From the NCBI GenBank assembly GCA_021805545.1, contig JAJZFB010000038.1:1-43521 (forward strand): a DNA stretch of 43,521 nucleotides, in the 5' to 3' direction. Each line of letters begins with the position of its first letter. Position 1 is the stretch's first letter. Origin of the DNA: Pseudomonadota bacterium. Lineage in GTDB: Bacteria; Pseudomonadota; Alphaproteobacteria; Acetobacterales; Acetobacteraceae. Position numbers and translations under genes: made by a program. The notes under the pieces are model-generated. The model saw only the letters and a list, made by a program, of their open reading frames with translations, searched no databases and was not told the DNA's origin. Positions 1,997 to 10,227 of the stretch are shown one piece after another.

Positions 1997-2662
1997 CTAC
2001 TGCGTGGCCAGCCCCAGCACCGTGCCATTTTGGGCCTGTAGCAGCAGTGCCAGATGCTGGCCCGCCGGATGCGGAATGGTAAAGCGTTCATCCCAGCCAT
2101 TCCAGGGGCCAAGCGCGGTTATGCTGCGCACCACGTTCACCTCGGTAATGGTGCTGCCGCGGTTTTCCCCTCCCGTGATTTTGGTCTGGCTCTGGGAATC
2201 ATAACCAAACAGGATAATCTGCCCGGCGCCCTGGCCCTGAGGCACTTCAAGCGAGACCATGGCTCCGCCTTTAATGCTGAGTGGCACGGGTGGCAGCATG
2301 GCGGCCTTGGCGGACGCTATGGCGGCGGTGAGCTTGGCCTTGTTGCTGCCCACGAGCTGGGTTTTGCCATCCACCACCGCCTCGGGCGTGTAAACCTGGT
2401 TGTTGCTGAGCCTGGCATAATAAAATTGCCGCAGCGTGGTGTTCTTCGTGGCGTCGGTATCGTGCCAGCCGGGATTGTTCCAGTAGGTAACGTTGAGACT
2501 GAGCGGAAGAATATCCTTGTCCTGTGCCGCTAATTGCTTGAGCAGCGCATCCGCGGGAGGGCAGGAGGAACAGGCTTGCGATACAAACATCTCCACCAGA
2601 ACCGGACGGGCCTGGGCGGCGGGAGCGAGCAGCAGAAGCGCAATTATGGCAAGCCGCCTCAC
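1997..2662 (-). CDS. DUF1223 thioredoxin-fold secreted protein
   Basis: A 221-residue protein with a clear Sec signal peptide (MRRLAIIALLLLAPAAQA, cleavage after AQA). The motif VEMFVSQACSSCPPADALL near residues 23-41 holds a CxxC pair. This is the hallmark of the DUF1223 family, which adopts a thioredoxin-like fold and is exported. Its function is unestablished; a periplasmic thiol or redox role is inference from the motif. The start ATG overlaps the stop of the molybdoenzyme gene (ATGA), so the two are translationally coupled, which ties it to the cytochrome b561/molybdoenzyme pair. Confidence 0.85.
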   Translation of the reverse strand: MRRLAIIALLLLAPAAQARPVLVEMFVSQACSSCPPADALLKQLAAQDKDILPLSLNVTYWNNPGWHDTDATKNTTLRQFYYARLSNNQVYTPEAVVDGKTQLVGSNKAKLTAAIASAKAAMLPPVPLSIKGGAMVSLEVPQGQGAGQIILFGYDSQSQTKITGGENRGSTITEVNVVRSITALGPWNGWDERFTIPHPAGQHLALLLQAQNGTVLGLATQ

Positions 2663-3366
2663 GAACCAGAGAACCAGTTATAACCCTGGTCCTCCCAATA
2701 ACCGCCCGGATAGATATTCGTCACCGCCAGTTGCACCAGATTCTTGGGGTTCTTGAAGCCGAGCTTGGTGGGAATGCGCAGCCGCACCGGCGCGCCAAAG
2801 GCCGGGGTAAGCGGCGCGCCCAGGAAGGTAAGCGCCAGAATGGTTTGCGGGTGCAGGGCGGACTCCATGTCGATGGAAGAATAATACCCGTCGGCGCATT
2901 GGAAGGATACGTAACGGCATTTGGTATCGGCCCCCACGCGGTGCAGAAAATCGCTCAGCCTCACGCCGCCCCATTGGCCGATCACGCGCCAGCCCTCCAC
3001 GCAAACAAGCCGGGTAATCTGCTCCTGCTGCGGCAGAGCGCGCAGTTGGGTCAGGCTCCAGGGAGTCTTGTCCGTAATCTGCCCGCCCAGCTCCAGCTTG
3101 TAGGTGGTTTCATCCACCACGGGAGCTTGGGATATATCGTAAAACGCATTGAAGCGCGGGGGGCGGGTGATCTGGTCCGGCCGGAAGGTGGGGGCGAGGG
3201 TGTGCGGGTCGAACAAAGCCGCCTGCACGCGGTCATTCCAGGCGGACATGGCATGGAGAAATTTATCCGCGAGGTCCGGGTGCTGGGGGTCTTCGTAATC
3301 GCAACCCGTAAGGCTGGGGATAAGCCCCAGCGCCATGGCACGGAGCATGAGCTGGCGGCGGTTCAT
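2659..3366 (-). CDS. Molybdopterin-dependent oxidoreductase, sulfite oxidase/MsrP-like
   Basis: 235 residues. The N-terminus MNRRQLMLRAMALG ends in LIPSLTGC, which looks like a lipobox after a weak twin-arginine signal, so a membrane-anchored periplasmic protein is likely. The sulfite-oxidase-type molybdopterin domain fills the rest. RLVCVEGWRVIGQWGGV contains the Cys expected to ligate molybdenum, as in CVEAW of MsrP/YedY. The protein is shorter than YedY (about 330 aa). Family members reduce methionine sulfoxide (MsrP) or oxidise sulfite; the substrate is not determined here. The start ATG overlaps the stop of the cytochrome b561 gene (ATGA), so the b-type cytochrome is the probable electron partner. 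The frame is open upstream, but the overlap and lipobox fix the start. Confidence 0.85.
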   Translation of the reverse strand: MNRRQLMLRAMALGLIPSLTGCDYEDPQHPDLADKFLHAMSAWNDRVQAALFDPHTLAPTFRPDQITRPPRFNAFYDISQAPVVDETTYKLELGGQITDKTPWSLTQLRALPQQEQITRLVCVEGWRVIGQWGGVRLSDFLHRVGADTKCRYVSFQCADGYYSSIDMESALHPQTILALTFLGAPLTPAFGAPVRLRIPTKLGFKNPKNLVQLAVTNIYPGGYWEDQGYNWFSGS

Positions 3367-3962
3367 TGGCGGCCTCCCGTAACCATGGGGGGCAACACTT
3401 TGGGCACCAGCGCCACCAGCATGAGATGTACGGCCAGAAACGCCACAATGGCGGCCATGGCGAAGAAATGCACATAGCGCGACACAATATAGCCGCCGAG
3501 CAGGTCGCTCAGGGGCCAAAGCTGCACCGGCTTCCATATAGCCAGGCCCGAGAGCACCACCACCACGCCTGCCAGCAGCACACCGCAATAAAGCAGGCGC
3601 TGCACGGCGTTATAGGCGCCTGTATCGTGCTTCAAGCGGAAGCTGAGGGCGAGCTTCATATCCGCCCAGATGGCGCGCGGGCCGGGCGGCGCCAGCTTGC
3701 GCCAATGCCCGCTGGCGCCGGTCCAGACAAAGTAGATAAGCCCGTTGGCCACCAGCAGCCACATCATGGCCAAATGCCAGGCAATGGCCGCGCCCAGCCA
3801 TTGGCCGATGGTAATGGTGCCGGGAAAGGTGAAATTGAACAACGGCGAGGCATTATAAATCTGCCAGCCGCTGCCGATCATCATGACAATGGCAAAGGCG
3901 TTGAGCCAATGCGTTACCCGTAAAACCAAGGGGTGGATCGCCTGTTTTTTTGTGCCGCGCAT
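3363..3962 (-). CDS. Cytochrome b561 family protein
   Basis: 199 residues with four to five membrane helices. Histidines are placed as in di-heme b561/Ni-Fe-hydrogenase-type cytochromes: HPLVLRVTHWLNA near the N-terminus, AWHLAMMWLLVANG, and YVHFFAMAAIVAFLAVHLMLV near the C-terminus. It should pass electrons between the quinone pool and the molybdoenzyme encoded immediately downstream, taking the place of MsrQ/YedZ in the MsrPQ system. ATG 3962 is chosen because GGAG lies 8 bases upstream on the minus strand and homologues begin near this KKQAIHPLV segment. It is the first gene of a four-gene operon with ATGA overlaps. Confidence 0.85.
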   Translation of the reverse strand: MRGTKKQAIHPLVLRVTHWLNAFAIVMMIGSGWQIYNASPLFNFTFPGTITIGQWLGAAIAWHLAMMWLLVANGLIYFVWTGASGHWRKLAPPGPRAIWADMKLALSFRLKHDTGAYNAVQRLLYCGVLLAGVVVVLSGLAIWKPVQLWPLSDLLGGYIVSRYVHFFAMAAIVAFLAVHLMLVALVPKVLPPMVTGGRQ

Positions 3963-4041
3963 GGTGCTGCTCCAAAATTTGCCTTGTTTTGCGCCCAGTT
4001 TTGCCTTTGCCGCAAGGCATTGAAACGATGCCCATACGGCA

Positions 4042-4071
4042 TTGGGCATTGCGCCCACCCCGCACCATATA
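4042..4071 (+). promoter_or_regulatory. Possible promoter of the Met-rich protein gene
   Basis: TTGGGC (4042-4047) and CATATA (4066-4071) are separated by 18 bases and lie about 45 bases upstream of the ATG at 4117, within the divergent intergenic region shared with the cytochrome b561 operon. This is a match by eye to a sigma70-type pattern; an alternative sigma factor is not excluded. Confidence 0.3.
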
Positions 4072-4116
4072 GGCGCTGCGGGGCTAATCCCGTGCCATCA
4101 TAACAGGAGTTTGCCA

Positions 4117-4386
4117 ATGTCACGTATTTTTGCCGCCGCCTGCGCCCTGGCCCTGCTGGGTCCGGCCGCTTTTGCCCAAAACACCATGAGCAATACCATG
4201 GGCAGCACCATGGGTAACGGCATGAGCAGCGGCTCAGCCAGCACCCTGCCCAATGGCGGCACGGGCATGAAGCCCGCGAATGCCATGAAGCCTTTGCAAA
4301 ACAAGGCTCAGTCTACCATGGGGAGCGCCATGTCCAACACCATGGCCCCTGCGAATAACATGGGGAACGGTACCACCAGCCCGTAA
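4117..4386 (+). CDS. Small secreted methionine-rich protein
   Basis: 89 residues with a textbook signal peptide (cleavage after residue 20, GPAAFA|Q). The mature 69-residue chain has ten methionines, spaced every 4-7 residues in Ser/Thr/Asn/Gly-rich sequence (NTMSNTMGSTMGNGMSSG), and no Cys, aromatic or acidic residues. It is low complexity and probably disordered. AGGAG at the usual distance supports ATG 4117 rather than upstream codons. Divergent transcription from a cytochrome b561/MsrP-like operon recalls MrpX, a periplasmic Met-rich hypochlorite scavenger recycled by a YedY-type reductase in Azospira. A Cu(I)-binding Mets-motif role is the main alternative. Function is inference; coding potential is strong. 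Confidence 0.8.
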   Translation: MSRIFAAACALALLGPAAFAQNTMSNTMGSTMGNGMSSGSASTLPNGGTGMKPANAMKPLQNKAQSTMGSAMSNTMAPANNMGNGTTSP

Positions 4387-4396
4387 GCATTGAAGT

Positions 4397-4433
4397 CCGG
4401 CGGCTCTAATGGCTAAATCATTAAAGCCGCCGG
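4397..4433 (+). promoter_or_regulatory. Stem-loop enclosing the peroxiredoxin start codon
   Basis: CCGGCGGCT (4397-4405) is perfectly complementary to AGCCGCCGG (4425-4433). The 19-base loop holds the ATG at 4409. The stem could end transcripts of the Met-rich gene (there is no T tract) or hold the peroxiredoxin start in a structured context. The perfect 9-bp GC-rich pairing is directly visible; a regulatory role is inference. Confidence 0.5.
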
Positions 4434-5083
4434 GGGAGGGCGCCATCAGCACGCTCAATTCACGTCTGGCCGATCTTCTGGCTTCGCGCTGCGAGAACCC
4501 GGATTGGGCGGCGGCCTACCAGCAGATTATCGGTACGCTGCACCGCGATGGGTTCTACGAAGGCATGATCGGCCCTGGCCAAGCCTTCCCGGATTTTATG
4601 CTGCCCAGCGCCACGGGGCTTCTGGTGAGCCTGCGCGAGGAGCTGGCGCGCGGCCCGGTGGTGCTCACCTTTTTCCGGGGCGAATGGTGCCCGTTCTGCA
4701 AGCTCACCGCCGCCGCGCTGGCCGGGGCAGCGCCCCGCATTACCGCCGCGGGCGGGCGCATATTGGCGCTGACACCCGAAGGCGGGGAATGGCCGCTGCG
4801 CCTGCAACAGCGCGATAACAGCGCCTTCCAGGTTCTGGCGGATATAGATTTCGGCGTGGGGCTGGCCGCCGGGCTGGTGTTCAAAATCCCCCCGCTCTAC
4901 CGCGCCCGCGTGCAGGGGCTGCGGCTGGATTTACGCCAGGGCAACGCCGCCTGGTGCCTGCCCGTGCCGGCGGTGTTCGTCATCCGGCAGGATGGCGTTA
5001 TCGCCTGGCGCTTTGCCGATGTGGATTTCGCGCGCAGGCCCGAGCCGGATGAAATTCTGGCCGCGCTGGCGAGGCTGGGCTGA
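4409..5083 (+). CDS. Peroxiredoxin-like (AhpC/TSA family) protein
   Basis: 224 residues. A helical N-terminal extension (to about residue 50) precedes the thioredoxin-fold domain, which opens with GPGQAFPDFMLPSATG. VVLTFFRGEWCPFCKLT places C94 and C97 in a WCPFC active site, as in the peroxiredoxin-like AhpC/TSA subgroup that has a CxxC instead of the classic PxxxTxxC. The C-terminal PVPAVFVIRQDGVIAWRF strand matches the family. It probably reduces hydroperoxides in the cytoplasm (no signal peptide). No strong ribosome-binding site is visible before ATG 4409, which lies inside a stem-loop. The stop overlaps the start of the LysR gene (TGATG), so the two are coupled, 22 bases after the Met-rich gene. 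Confidence 0.85.
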   Translation: MAKSLKPPGEGAISTLNSRLADLLASRCENPDWAAAYQQIIGTLHRDGFYEGMIGPGQAFPDFMLPSATGLLVSLREELARGPVVLTFFRGEWCPFCKLTAAALAGAAPRITAAGGRILALTPEGGEWPLRLQQRDNSAFQVLADIDFGVGLAAGLVFKIPPLYRARVQGLRLDLRQGNAAWCLPVPAVFVIRQDGVIAWRFADVDFARRPEPDEILAALARLG

Positions 5084-5952
5084 TGGAGCTTGTCCAGGTC
5101 CGGTATTTTCTGGCGCTGGCGCGCACGCTTAATTTCACGCGCGCGGCGGCTGAGTGCAACGTCACGCAACCGGCCTTCTCGCGCGCGGTTCAGCGGCTGG
5201 AGGACGAGCTTGGCGGCGCGCTTTTGCACCGCGAGCGCAACGCCACGCAGCTATCCGCCTTGGGGCGCGAGATGCACCCGCATTTGCAGGCCATGGCGGA
5301 TGCCGCCGAGGCCGCCCAGGCCCTGGCCGCCACACACCGCGCGCCACGCGCGGGTAATTTGCGCATCGGCCTGGCGCCGGGCATCTCCACCACGCCCATC
5401 GCCAGCGCCATTACCGAGGTGCTGCGGGTTTTCCCCAGCGCGGAGCTTCATTATTCCGAATCATCAGCACCCGCCCTGGCGGATGCGATGCTGGCCGACG
5501 CGCTGGATTGCGCGCTGGTGCCGGAAGAGGCGGTTTTGCCCGAGCGCTGCAACCGCTGGCCGCTTTATACCGAGCTGGCCGTACTGGTATGCCCCGTCAC
5601 GCACCGCCTGGCGCGGCAGAATGATTGTTCCGCCGCCGACCTTGCGGGTGAGACGCTGCTGGTTGGCGAAACATGCGGCGGGTTCGGGAAAATGCTCGTG
5701 GAATCAAGGGGAGTTCAGCCCCGCCTGCAACAATGCCGCGGCTCCGCCACGCAGATTTGCGAGCTGGTGGCCGCAGGGCTGGGTATTGCATTGCTCTCCA
5801 ACCGCCTGCCCATCGCCGCACCGCTCACCAGCCGGGCCTTTACGGAGCCGGAACTTGCGCGGCGGATTCAGCTAACCGCCCTGGCCGGGCGGCCACTGGC
5901 CCCGGCGGCGGCGAGTTTCGTAAGATTGTGCCGCGCGCAGATGTTTTCATAA
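5083..5952 (+). CDS. LysR-family transcriptional regulator
   Basis: 289 residues. The winged helix-turn-helix occupies residues 1-60 (VRYFLALARTLNFTRAAAE, TQPAFSRAVQRLE), followed by a linker helix and a periplasmic-binding-protein-like effector domain from about residue 92 (GNLRIGLAPGIS). Length and layout are typical. Translation is coupled to the upstream peroxiredoxin-like gene through a TGATG overlap, so it may autoregulate this unit or respond to oxidants. Cysteines occur in the effector domain (GETCGGFG, LQQCRGSATQICEL), but not in the arrangement that would identify OxyR. Target and ligand are unknown. Confidence 0.9.
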   Translation: MELVQVRYFLALARTLNFTRAAAECNVTQPAFSRAVQRLEDELGGALLHRERNATQLSALGREMHPHLQAMADAAEAAQALAATHRAPRAGNLRIGLAPGISTTPIASAITEVLRVFPSAELHYSESSAPALADAMLADALDCALVPEEAVLPERCNRWPLYTELAVLVCPVTHRLARQNDCSAADLAGETLLVGETCGGFGKMLVESRGVQPRLQQCRGSATQICELVAAGLGIALLSNRLPIAAPLTSRAFTEPELARRIQLTALAGRPLAPAAASFVRLCRAQMFS

Positions 5953-7593: not shown

Positions 7594-10227
7594 TTAGTAC
7601 AATCCGCCCAGCGAATTATCGATAGCCTGGGGAGTGGCCGCGGGCGCGCCAGGCGTACCCGGGGTGCCGGGTTGTGTGCCGCTGGCATTGGGCAGCGTGT
7701 CTGTGCCGCCCAGCAGCGTGTTATTGCTTTGCGCGCCTGGCGTCTGATTATATTTGAAGGCTTCGGTCACCATCGTGCCGTCGGGCTCGGGTACTTTTTC
7801 CAGCGTCATGCCCTGGGGCATGGCCCAGCCCAGGTCTGGCTGGTTTTTTAGCGCCACCTTCATGTAGGCGTTCCATATTGGCCCGCACACATTGCCGCCC
7901 GTCTCGTTATTGCCAAGATCGGCGGGCGTATCGTAGCCAACCCAGCAGCCGGTAACGATGCCGGGGGTAAACCCGATGAACCATGCGTCGTAGAAATTAT
8001 TGGTGGTGCCGGTTTTACCCGCCACGGGCTGGCTTATGCCTTGCACTGCCGGCACGCCCGTGCCGCGCTTCACCACGCCTTGCATCATGGTCACAATCTG
8101 GAAGGCCGAATCCGGGTCCGCCAGTTGCTTGCCGGGGAGATCGAGCTGAGGCGGCTGGCTGGGGCTGGCATTGGTCTGGCAATTATCGCAAGCCTGGCCT
8201 GGTGTCTGGTACAGCACATTACCGTCCGGCCCGGTAACGCTGTCTATCAGGCTTGGCGTAACCTGGCGCCCATATTCATCCAAATCCGCGTAGGCATTGG
8301 TCATCTTCCACAAGGTTGTGTCGATGGCGCCAATGGCAGACGGGTAGTAGGGCGGCACATGCCTTACAATGCCAAAGGCCTTGAAGTTTTTAGCGACATT
8401 GTCCAGCCCAATCTGCCGTGTCAGGTGCAGGGTGGCGAGGTTGAGTGACTGTTCCAGCGCGTGGAACATGGGCACCGGGCCTTGGAAACTGTCTTCATAA
8501 TTACCCGGCCGGTACACCGTGCCGTTTGGCATTTGTTGCACAAAAGGGGCGTCCAGCACGGTCGCGTCGGGCTGTATGCCTTGTTCCAGCGCGGTGATGT
8601 AAACCAGCGGTTTTACCGACGAGCCGGGCTGGCGCTTCGCCTGTATGGCGCGGTTATAGGGCGATTCATCATGGCTCCAGCCGCCCACCATGGCCAGTAT
8701 GCGGCCGGTGACGGGATCCATGGAGATCAGCGCTCCCTGAACCTTGGGAATTTGCTCCAGCGCCAGGTTTTTGCCGCTGCCTGAAACCATGATCACATCG
8801 CCAGCCTTCAGCACGTCCGATACCGCGCTGGGCCATGGCCCAAAACCGCCTTTAACAGGCGGGCGCGCCCAGCGCATATTGGCCAGTGGCAGTGTGCCGG
8901 CCATGGTTTTGCCCGTGGCCGGATCCAGCATTCCAATCCTTGCCGCCTGCGTTCCGGCATCCAGCACAATGCCAAGGCGCCAATCCGCGCGCATGCCAGC
9001 CGGGTTTTGCTGTTTGCCCAGGTCAGCGGCCCAGTTCGCGGCCAGGTCCGGGTCGTTCAAATGTGTTACCAGCCCGTGCCAGCCATCATATTCATGGTCG
9101 TAGGTTTCCAGCTCGTTGCGCACCGCGTCGGTGGCGGCCTTTTGCAGCGCCGGGTTCAGGCTGGTTTGCACCACCAGGCCGCCCGTATCCACCTCCGCCT
9201 GGCCGAATTGCTGCACAAGCTGCGCCTGCACCGCGTCGGCGAAATAGCCGCCATCCACCACGCTGTGGTTATTCACCACCGTGCGCGGCAGCAGCGGCTC
9301 GGCAATGGCGGCATCGGCCTGGGCTTTTGTGATGACGCCATCCGCCAGCATGCGGCCGATGACGAAATTACGCCGCCCGAGCGCTGCGCGGGGGTGCAGG
9401 AATGGGTTGTAGCTGGTTGGCGCCTTGGGCAGCGAGGCCAGTGTGGCGGCCTCGGCGATGTCAATCTGGCTGAGCGGTTTACCGAAATAGGTTTGCGCCG
9501 CGGCGGCGATGCCGAAGGAGTTCTGCCCGAGATCAACCTCGTTGAGATAAAGCGTGAGAACCTGCTTTTTGCTCATCACCTGGTCCACGCGCATCGCCAG
9601 GATCGCCTCCTTGATCTTGGTGGCGAAGGTGATGTGGTTGTCCAGCAGCATGTTCTTTACCACCTGCTGGGTGATGGTGGAGGCCCCGATGGGGCGGCGG
9701 CCAGTGCCGATGAGCGAAATATCGGTAATGGCGGCGCGGATGATGGCAAACGGGTTTATCCCCGGTTCAACCCAGAACAGCCGGTCCTCCGCCGAGATGA
9801 AGGCTTCCGCCACAATGGGGGGTATCTGGTCGTAGGTCACGTAAATGCTGTGCCGCGTCCCCACCTCGTCCAGAAGCTGGAAATTGCTGGTATAGATACG
9901 GCTTTCCAGGGGCGGCTTGTAGTCCTTCAGGCTGTCCACGCTCGGCAGGCCGGACGAGAAATATAAAAATGCACCCGAGGCACCGAGAATCCCGGCGATA
10001 ATAAACAAAAACACCAGGCTGTAGAGGCCCGTGACGGCCCCGCTGAATAGCCGCCCGAGCAGGCTGCGCTTGCGCTTGGGCTGGGGCTGAGGCTGAGGCT
10101 GTTTTTTGCCCCTGCGCGGCGGCGGTGGCGCCGCACGCCGGGCGCGCGCCAGGCGCGGACCAGCGGAAAAACCGCCGCTTTCATCTTGCGGGCCGTGGGG
10201 GAGATTCGGATCGTTCGGGTCAGGCAT
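7594..10227 (-). CDS. mrcA: Penicillin-binding protein 1A (bifunctional class A PBP)
   Basis: 877 residues. It has a Pro/Gln/Lys-rich cytoplasmic tail (1-55), one membrane anchor (about 62-90), a GT51 transglycosylase domain (FISAEDRLFW with E147/D148, and GASTITQQVVKNMLL), and a transpeptidase domain with the active serine in PGSSVKPL (about residue 533), SLN (SLNLAT) and KTGTTNNFYDAWF (about 738). It polymerises and crosslinks peptidoglycan in the periplasm. GT51 motif 1 is unusual: the common H-x-G-x-D reads E-P-G-I-N. The C-terminus ends in a Gly/Pro/Thr-rich low-complexity tail. The amidase gene lies 97 bases upstream on the same strand. Confidence 0.95.
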   Translation of the reverse strand: MPDPNDPNLPHGPQDESGGFSAGPRLARARRAAPPPPRRGKKQPQPQPQPKRKRSLLGRLFSGAVTGLYSLVFLFIIAGILGASGAFLYFSSGLPSVDSLKDYKPPLESRIYTSNFQLLDEVGTRHSIYVTYDQIPPIVAEAFISAEDRLFWVEPGINPFAIIRAAITDISLIGTGRRPIGASTITQQVVKNMLLDNHITFATKIKEAILAMRVDQVMSKKQVLTLYLNEVDLGQNSFGIAAAAQTYFGKPLSQIDIAEAATLASLPKAPTSYNPFLHPRAALGRRNFVIGRMLADGVITKAQADAAIAEPLLPRTVVNNHSVVDGGYFADAVQAQLVQQFGQAEVDTGGLVVQTSLNPALQKAATDAVRNELETYDHEYDGWHGLVTHLNDPDLAANWAADLGKQQNPAGMRADWRLGIVLDAGTQAARIGMLDPATGKTMAGTLPLANMRWARPPVKGGFGPWPSAVSDVLKAGDVIMVSGSGKNLALEQIPKVQGALISMDPVTGRILAMVGGWSHDESPYNRAIQAKRQPGSSVKPLVYITALEQGIQPDATVLDAPFVQQMPNGTVYRPGNYEDSFQGPVPMFHALEQSLNLATLHLTRQIGLDNVAKNFKAFGIVRHVPPYYPSAIGAIDTTLWKMTNAYADLDEYGRQVTPSLIDSVTGPDGNVLYQTPGQACDNCQTNASPSQPPQLDLPGKQLADPDSAFQIVTMMQGVVKRGTGVPAVQGISQPVAGKTGTTNNFYDAWFIGFTPGIVTGCWVGYDTPADLGNNETGGNVCGPIWNAYMKVALKNQPDLGWAMPQGMTLEKVPEPDGTMVTEAFKYNQTPGAQSNNTLLGGTDTLPNASGTQPGTPGTPGAPAATPQAIDNSLGGLY

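Follow-up and report, generated by a model that had tools for sequence, protein, structure and literature searches.

The window examined here is a stretch of 43,521 nucleotides (contig JAJZFB010000038.1, positions 1 to 43,521 of the forward strand) and is one contig of a 2.79 Mb assembly (GCA_021805545.1) from a bacterium of the Acetobacteraceae. The genus is Acidocella-like, the close relatives include Acidocella strains, and the host bacterium is acid-loving. Within the window, a gene for a small, methionine-rich exported protein stands back to back with an operon encoding a cytochrome b561 and a molybdoenzyme that resembles MsrP, and this linkage recurs in several other lineages. The module comprises the following features:

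1997..2662, reverse strand: exported DUF1223 protein with a CSSC motif and a GTG start (PF06764, 1e-50), an optional partner
2659..3366, reverse strand: MsrP-like molybdoenzyme of 235 amino acids (PF00174, 4.4e-29) with CVEGW, twin arginines and a lipobox
3363..3962, reverse strand: membrane subunit of the cytochrome b561 family, 199 amino acids (PF01292, 2.6e-21), predicted quinol-side electron donor
4016..4045, forward strand: conserved operator GGCAT-N7-ATGCC-N5-GGCATTGG, in the intergenic region that separates the two arms, between both start codons
4117..4386, forward strand: methionine-rich exported protein of 89 amino acids, signal peptide at about residues 1-20 (TIGR02953, 17.5 bits)
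4409..5083, forward strand: peroxiredoxin-like protein (Prx) of the AhpC/TSA family with WCPFC (PF00578, 6e-16)
5083..5952, forward strand: LysR-family regulator (family match)

The divergent operon, the Prx and the LysR regulator named in an initial annotation were all recovered by family matches. That annotation had the operon joined by ATGA overlaps, which holds for the b561 and molybdoenzyme genes; the overlap between the molybdoenzyme and DUF1223 genes is GTGA, because the DUF1223 start codon is GTG. On the other arm, the methionine-rich gene, Prx and LysR are co-directional, with a gap of 22 bp followed by a 1-base overlap between Prx and LysR. The gene beyond LysR, as read by eye, is prfB, and the outer neighbour on one flank encodes a PMT_2 glycosyltransferase.

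The methionine-rich exported peptide

The mature part of the exported protein has 69 residues, including 10 methionines, and is of low complexity of the MSNTMGSTMGNGM type. Its composition is limited to A, G, K, L, M, N, P, Q, S and T and thus lacks cysteine, aromatic and acidic residues, as first described from the open reading frame (ORF); histidine is missing as well. AGGAG lies seven bases 5' of the ATG. With methionine backgrounds assumed at 2.2-3%, the probability of at least 10 methionines in 69 residues is ~3e-6 to 4e-5. A comparison for selection on methionine, made on a single quartet, gave no significant excess. Membership in the MXKDX family was rejected, as the TIGR02953 match (17.5 bits, E 0.0029) falls below the cut-off of 41 and the mature peptide contains no aspartate. 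Exported ORFs in the scans described below were called with a crude rule for signal peptides.

Linkage to a b561-molybdoenzyme pair

Beyond the genus, linkage was followed in the best 80 of at least 586 loci from a search of genome contigs (loci L068-L147 partly repeat genomes that also appear under G handles, L254 repeats L153, and L278 and L089 denote one locus). These 80 related loci (1.2 Mb) contain 52 strict methionine-rich exported ORFs, every one of which lies no more than 1.6 kb from the gene for the molybdoenzyme. Of these, 37 are downstream on its strand and 11 are upstream on the other strand, three are antisense artefacts, and one, in L084, lies on the opposite strand and overlaps an over-extended molybdoenzyme ORF. 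Together with the conserved synteny, this positional control rules out chance adjacency. The gene follows the molybdoenzyme by 20-76 bp on the same strand in 29 of 30 Pseudomonas loci and in both loci each of Pigmentiphaga and Pandoraea, where it is mostly of the MXKDX type. No methionine-rich gene follows the molybdoenzyme in the loci of Methylobacterium (0/5), Serratia (0/4), Collimonas (0/1) or the Roseomonas type (0/2). Two gene orders are therefore seen, divergent in Acidocella and direct downstream in other lineages.

Among other Acetobacteraceae, ten of the 30 best loci carry a downstream methionine-rich gene, and these are the ten best-matching ones; the remaining 20 have none at the strict threshold, and L278 has a divergent one just below it. 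The molybdoenzyme itself is matched in 91 of 120 genomes of the relatives of G371. The MXKDX model TIGR02953 matches 15 of 385 genomes of the class, eight of them above cut-off, and three of these eight (L148 and L149 of one genus, and L153) adjoin a b561-molybdoenzyme pair. In L151 and L154, MXKDX genes are followed by apparent genes for an extracytoplasmic function (ECF) sigma factor and its anti-sigma factor, as is known for MrpX and BcrX, and the 1.5-kb flanks hold no molybdoenzyme. Finally, a methionine-rich-looking ORF at 9554-9835 (forward strand) of the window lies antisense inside a long ORF (7594-10227, reverse strand) and is an artefact that recurs in relatives.

Within the genus, represented by 38 genomes, the molybdoenzyme occurs in 30 (G061 included; G002 was counted as lacking it despite a 29-residue fragment match), and no genome has an MsrP above the NCBIfam cut-off. 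Orthologs of Prx (at least 243 bits) and LysR (E 1e-60 or better), found in 22 and 21 of the 38 genomes, respectively, are confined to molybdoenzyme-bearing genomes (22/30 and 21/30, against 0/8 of those without the enzyme); at E 1e-3, Prx matches in 31 of 38 genomes, the additional ones being distant paralogs. Of the 22 genomes with Prx, 19 have the methionine-rich gene between it and b561, compared with none of the seven readable genomes that have the molybdoenzyme without an adjacent Prx (G005 is unreadable there); a Fisher test of peptide against Prx used these counts, 19/3 versus 0/7, with G033 and G028 included. In-place homologues in G004, G015 and G020 have few methionines. In G034 the module has decayed (L205, 1799-2100), leaving, by eye, the PMT_2 gene, the operator, a short methionine-containing remnant and the tail of LysR. 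The genome survey for co-occurrence suggested by the initial annotation was thus positive, with the neighbourhood conserved in the genus and the linkage of methionine-rich gene, b561 and molybdoenzyme found in other lineages.

The close tracking of peptide and Prx in the genus, and their co-directional genes 22 bp apart, could mean that the peptide belongs to a Prx-LysR unit for peroxide or thiol defence, with the molybdoenzyme operon co-regulated alongside it but taking no part in peptide recycling. In Roseiarcus (L105, 5327-9422), too, a Prx relative and a LysR gene lie close to a b561-molybdoenzyme pair together with two methionine-rich ORFs, one with methionine runs. However, in Pseudomonas, Pigmentiphaga and Pandoraea the methionine-rich gene accompanies the molybdoenzyme, and those loci yielded no relative of the window Prx (the 30 loci of other Acetobacteraceae were not searched for Prx), which makes such a unit highly improbable. 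The Prx carries no signal peptide by eye and probably handles peroxide in the cytoplasm.

The DUF1223 protein, which matches PDB 2axo (E 5e-28), had been proposed as a thioredoxin-fold partner of the system. It does lie beside the molybdoenzyme in the window, but a core role is ruled out by its presence in only 18 of the 30 module-bearing genomes of the genus (tblastn; G028, among the rest, is cut there by a contig end), and it was not detected beside the Pseudomonas, Pigmentiphaga or Pandoraea pairs.

The molybdoenzyme and its cytochrome

The predicted molybdenum ligand is Cys122 in CVEGW, and the enzyme combines the CVExW cysteine of the MsrP type with a sulfite-oxidase-type molybdopterin fold. 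The nearest solved sequence is YedY (PDB 1xdq, E 1.4e-14), which has CVEAW in the alignment. The enzyme scores 83.1 bits against MsrP (NCBIfam NF003767, cut-off 207) and 41.5, 15.7 and 34.5 bits against SorA, SorT and SoxC (NCBIfam cut-offs 600, 570 and 420), i.e., below the cut-off in each case. It therefore shares with E. coli MsrPQ the SUOX fold and the CVExW motif but differs in falling below the MsrP cut-off, in its lipobox and in its b561 partner. An AlphaFold model (mean predicted local distance difference test score 80.2; below 50 in a C-terminal stretch) matches the whole sulfite-oxidase fold family, YedY and the sulfite dehydrogenase 2blf being level, and the fold is therefore compatible with either direction of the reaction.

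Twin arginines and a lipobox are present in all 96 molybdoenzyme rows inspected, and Asp or Asn follows the lipobox cysteine in 90 of them; in the window the N-terminus reads RR...LTGC-D. According to the Asp+2 rule, such lipoproteins are retained at the inner membrane. Because of these motifs, the molybdoenzyme is predicted to be a lipoprotein exported by the twin-arginine translocation pathway and kept at the inner membrane. The membrane protein matches PF01292 and nothing else up to E 1, hence no ferric-reductase-like (MsrQ/YedZ) domain, which agrees with the earlier view that b561 replaces YedZ. The sole solved b561 relative found was FdnI (1kqf_C, E 1e-4).

A paralogous b561-molybdoenzyme pair occurs in L061, L062, L063, L064 and L067. 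In L061 and L063 it is part of a longer gene row with an SBP_bac_11 protein and a membrane-type protein of 215 amino acids, of which the L061 copy has no Pfam match.

Residue 127, five positions after the cysteine ligand, bears on the direction of the reaction. Sulfite oxidases have Arg at this position and a CAGNRR motif. By eye, Arg is found in the window enzyme and five more of 25 alignment rows, and Ser in the other 19. A pair of Acidocella genes that is, by its description, the same as the one in the window was named nSor (novel Sulfoxide-Q oxidoreductase) in 2023 and is described as widespread in Acidocella (PMC10715153). That paper proposes that electrons go to quinone, arguing that the cytochrome b resembles formate dehydrogenase gamma, and its text contains neither 'methionine-rich' nor 'DUF1223'. 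On this account the pair would oxidise a sulfur compound, reduce ubiquinone and add to respiration, and the methionine-rich gene would be an unrelated neighbour. FdnI as the only solved b561 relative found, the level match to 2blf and the six Arg rows are in line with it, whereas the Ser in 19 rows and a CVEGW motif nearer to the CVEAW of YedY than to CAGNRR speak against it. We consider nSor-type oxidation unlikely, also in view of the expression data and operator sites discussed below.

Relation to published systems

The published systems are compared as described in the passages cited. In Azospira, MrpX-YedYZ under SigF/NrsF protects against hypochlorite by periplasmic methionine cycling (PMC8315932, PMC4623255), and in Brucella, BcrXQP with BcrS/AbcS unites an MXKDX peptide and MsrP/MsrQ homologues in one operon, which is induced by hypochlorous acid (HOCl) and aids HOCl resistance (PMC8315932). 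The window shares with both an exported methionine-rich peptide whose gene is linked to those of a SUOX-family molybdoenzyme and a haem-bearing membrane subunit, and the analogy to MrpX first proposed for the locus is the best reading of it. Unlike MrpX-YedYZ, the window has b561 in place of YedZ/MsrQ, a predicted lipoprotein enzyme far below the MsrP cut-off, and a peptide without the Lys-Asp repeat; the neighbours of the peptide gene are LysR, with an operator, and Prx rather than an ECF sigma/anti-sigma pair, and DUF1223 and Prx are added. BcrXQP likewise differs from the window in its MsrPQ homologues, its ECF16 control and its cytochrome family. The system, probably a relative in function of MrpX/BcrX, is set apart from them by its cytochrome and by a distinct molybdoenzyme clade.

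A further published counterpart is a gene set of Burkholderia cenocepacia, i.e., the exported protein BCAL1105, the cytochrome b561 BCAL1106 and the oxidoreductase BCAL1107, which rose 6.8-, 4.1- and 2.7-fold with H2O2 and 12.7-, 8.3- and 3.4-fold with sodium hypochlorite (NaOCl), respectively (PMC2830190). In sputum arrays, BCAL1106 and BCAL1107 rose ~90-fold and ~66-fold, the highest rises in the B. cenocepacia dataset (PMC2559838), and surface shaving yielded the BCAL1105 peptide DAMGHDAMAK (PMC11054960). The BCAL1107 primers printed in PMC2559838 translate to ESTYRL and KNPKHI; their sites lie 377 bp apart on the window molybdoenzyme gene, a distance equal to the product size given in print; on the Pandoraea gene, with its 3-residue insert, the distance is 386 bp. 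This primer match, on which the identity rests, points to BCAL1107 as a molybdoenzyme of the window family. Like the window, the Burkholderia set would then comprise a methionine-rich exported protein, a b561 and a molybdoenzyme, co-induced by NaOCl and H2O2; unlike it, the set has no Prx, LysR or DUF1223 named with it, and the passages give no methionine-cycle interpretation. By analogy, oxidant induction may thus be considered published for a matching set, and this response, like the methionine-rich linkage in several lineages, suits repair better than the respiratory role proposed for nSor.

The statement in the initial annotation that this exact combination had not been described was too strong, given the nSor pair of 2023 (PMC10715153) and the oxidant-induced BCAL1105-1107 set (PMC2830190). 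Among open-licence PMC papers, none was found that joins the nSor pair with the Burkholderia methionine-rich set, and a Cupriavidus paper containing both 'cytochrome b561' and 'methionine-rich' concerns other genes. Asaia is another genus of the Acetobacteraceae. An MXKDX repeat protein is listed among the proteins released by Asaia (PMC12502724).

A shared operator

The operator was found by aligning the divergent intergenic regions; of the 29 module-bearing genomes of the genus that are readable at the main locus, 27 carry it there (missing in G035 and G028; G005 is unreadable). The T-N11-A rule describes LysR-type boxes, and ATGCC-N5-GGCAT fits such a box. A slightly relaxed operator is found without mismatch in 17 of the 38 genomes, and the reversed control gives no match; with two mismatches allowed, the reversed control gives two matches over the 38 genomes, and several two-mismatch sites are likely chance. 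A matrix built from 26 sites scores these at 31-51, while 1500 random 330-bp stretches, drawn from the same genus loci, reach at most 10.9 except for one real site (23.8) that was drawn repeatedly. Since both arms share one conserved operator, they are probably co-regulated through it. LysR may bind this site, judging from the box; it is rejected as a proven binder, because four genomes without a LysR match at E 1e-60 (G015, G017, G021 and G032) retain the operator, and a more distant LysR may be present in them. A family-wide operator was also rejected, with scores of at least 15 outside the genus confined to L084, L088 and L089 among the loci scored, and no site in either the 15 TIGR02953 loci or the ten loci of other Acetobacteraceae that have the methionine-rich gene downstream.

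All five genomes that encode another, unrelated family of exported methionine-rich proteins (G004, G006, G010, G018 and G031; scores 27-36) have the operator ~75 bp in front of its gene:

L213, 1781-2059, forward strand; L209, 1426-1683, reverse strand; L250-L252: second methionine-rich family, ~85-92 amino acids, operator upstream

The L213 copy has no Pfam match. Because the main locus has no methionine-rich gene in G006 and G018 and a methionine-poor one in G004, the second family is suggested to have replaced the module peptide in these three genomes.

The operator also precedes a DsbD/thioredoxin gene in two of three cases (G015 and G034, both without LysR; the third DsbD-type copy, L247, has none) and an MsrA gene, at scores above 15, in three of the 26 readable of 28 loci (G007, G061 and G017). 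Two further MsrA sites are weak, and the copy of this MsrA in the window genome lacks the operator. Upstream of the paralogous b561-molybdoenzyme pair, the site is clear in L067 (24.6), borderline in L061 (11.3) and weak in L062 and L063, while in L064 a good site (23.8) precedes a Prx-like frame instead. These sites in relatives suggest a role in extracytoplasmic redox reactions of methionine and thiols, and those ahead of MsrA and DsbD/thioredoxin genes argue further against the respiratory reading of nSor. In addition, G028 has elsewhere a 57% identical Prx-like fragment with the operator ahead. An operator-like site at L212 (1822-1851) lies between a histidine-specific methyltransferase gene, of the ergothioneine type, and an SDR/patatin pair, and another occurs at L208 (patatin).

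In L210 (415-2035, reverse strand), a PCu(A)C chaperone, MsrA and MsrB are encoded in a row, with signal-like N-termini by eye and the operator between the first two. Clusters of methionine bind Cu(I), and the module could accordingly serve copper handling, with a Cu(I)-binding peptide that the redox genes protect or load. Histidine and methionine occur together in the relatives L084, L088, L089 and L102, and G007 has a PCu(A)C chaperone gene immediately 5' of its operator-msrA-msrB unit. Yet the module contains no copper gene, the window peptide has neither His nor Cys, and the published Burkholderia response is to oxidants, with no copper test in the passages cited, so that copper handling appears very unlikely.

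Proposed function

Taken together, it is likely that the module is a periplasmic methionine-cycling oxidant scavenger resembling MrpX/BcrX. The exported peptide would meet strong oxidants, such as hypohalous acids and peroxides, which would convert its methionine to methionine sulfoxide. The MsrP-like lipoprotein at the inner membrane would reduce the peptide sulfoxides back, and the b561 subunit, as we infer from its family, would hand the molybdoenzyme electrons from quinol. Both arms would be expressed together through the one operator, Prx would deal with cytoplasmic peroxide, and DUF1223 would be an optional thiol-redox accessory. Three observations weigh against this scavenger: some peptide homologues are poor in methionine, in some genomes the molybdoenzyme stands alone, and within the genus the peptide tracks Prx more tightly.

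A broader proposal, for which we see about even chances, is that Acidocella-like bacteria possess an envelope methionine-redox regulon marked by the operator and comprising interchangeable, unrelated methionine-rich proteins, a b561-fed lipoprotein reductase of the MsrP-like kind and, in some species, MsrA and DsbD/thioredoxin. The nSor pair would then recycle a methionine buffer in several lineages and be a methionine sulfoxide reductase, not a quinone reductase. If so, nSor, an enzyme of unsettled direction, would gain a testable substrate, and the top rises of BCAL1106 and BCAL1107 in the sputum dataset (PMC2559838) would be explained. The operator offers a handle for finding methionine-rich scavengers missed by sequence similarity, as with the second family. 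Sacrificial methionine peptides with dedicated recyclers would then be a broad strategy that employs unrelated cytochromes and regulators.

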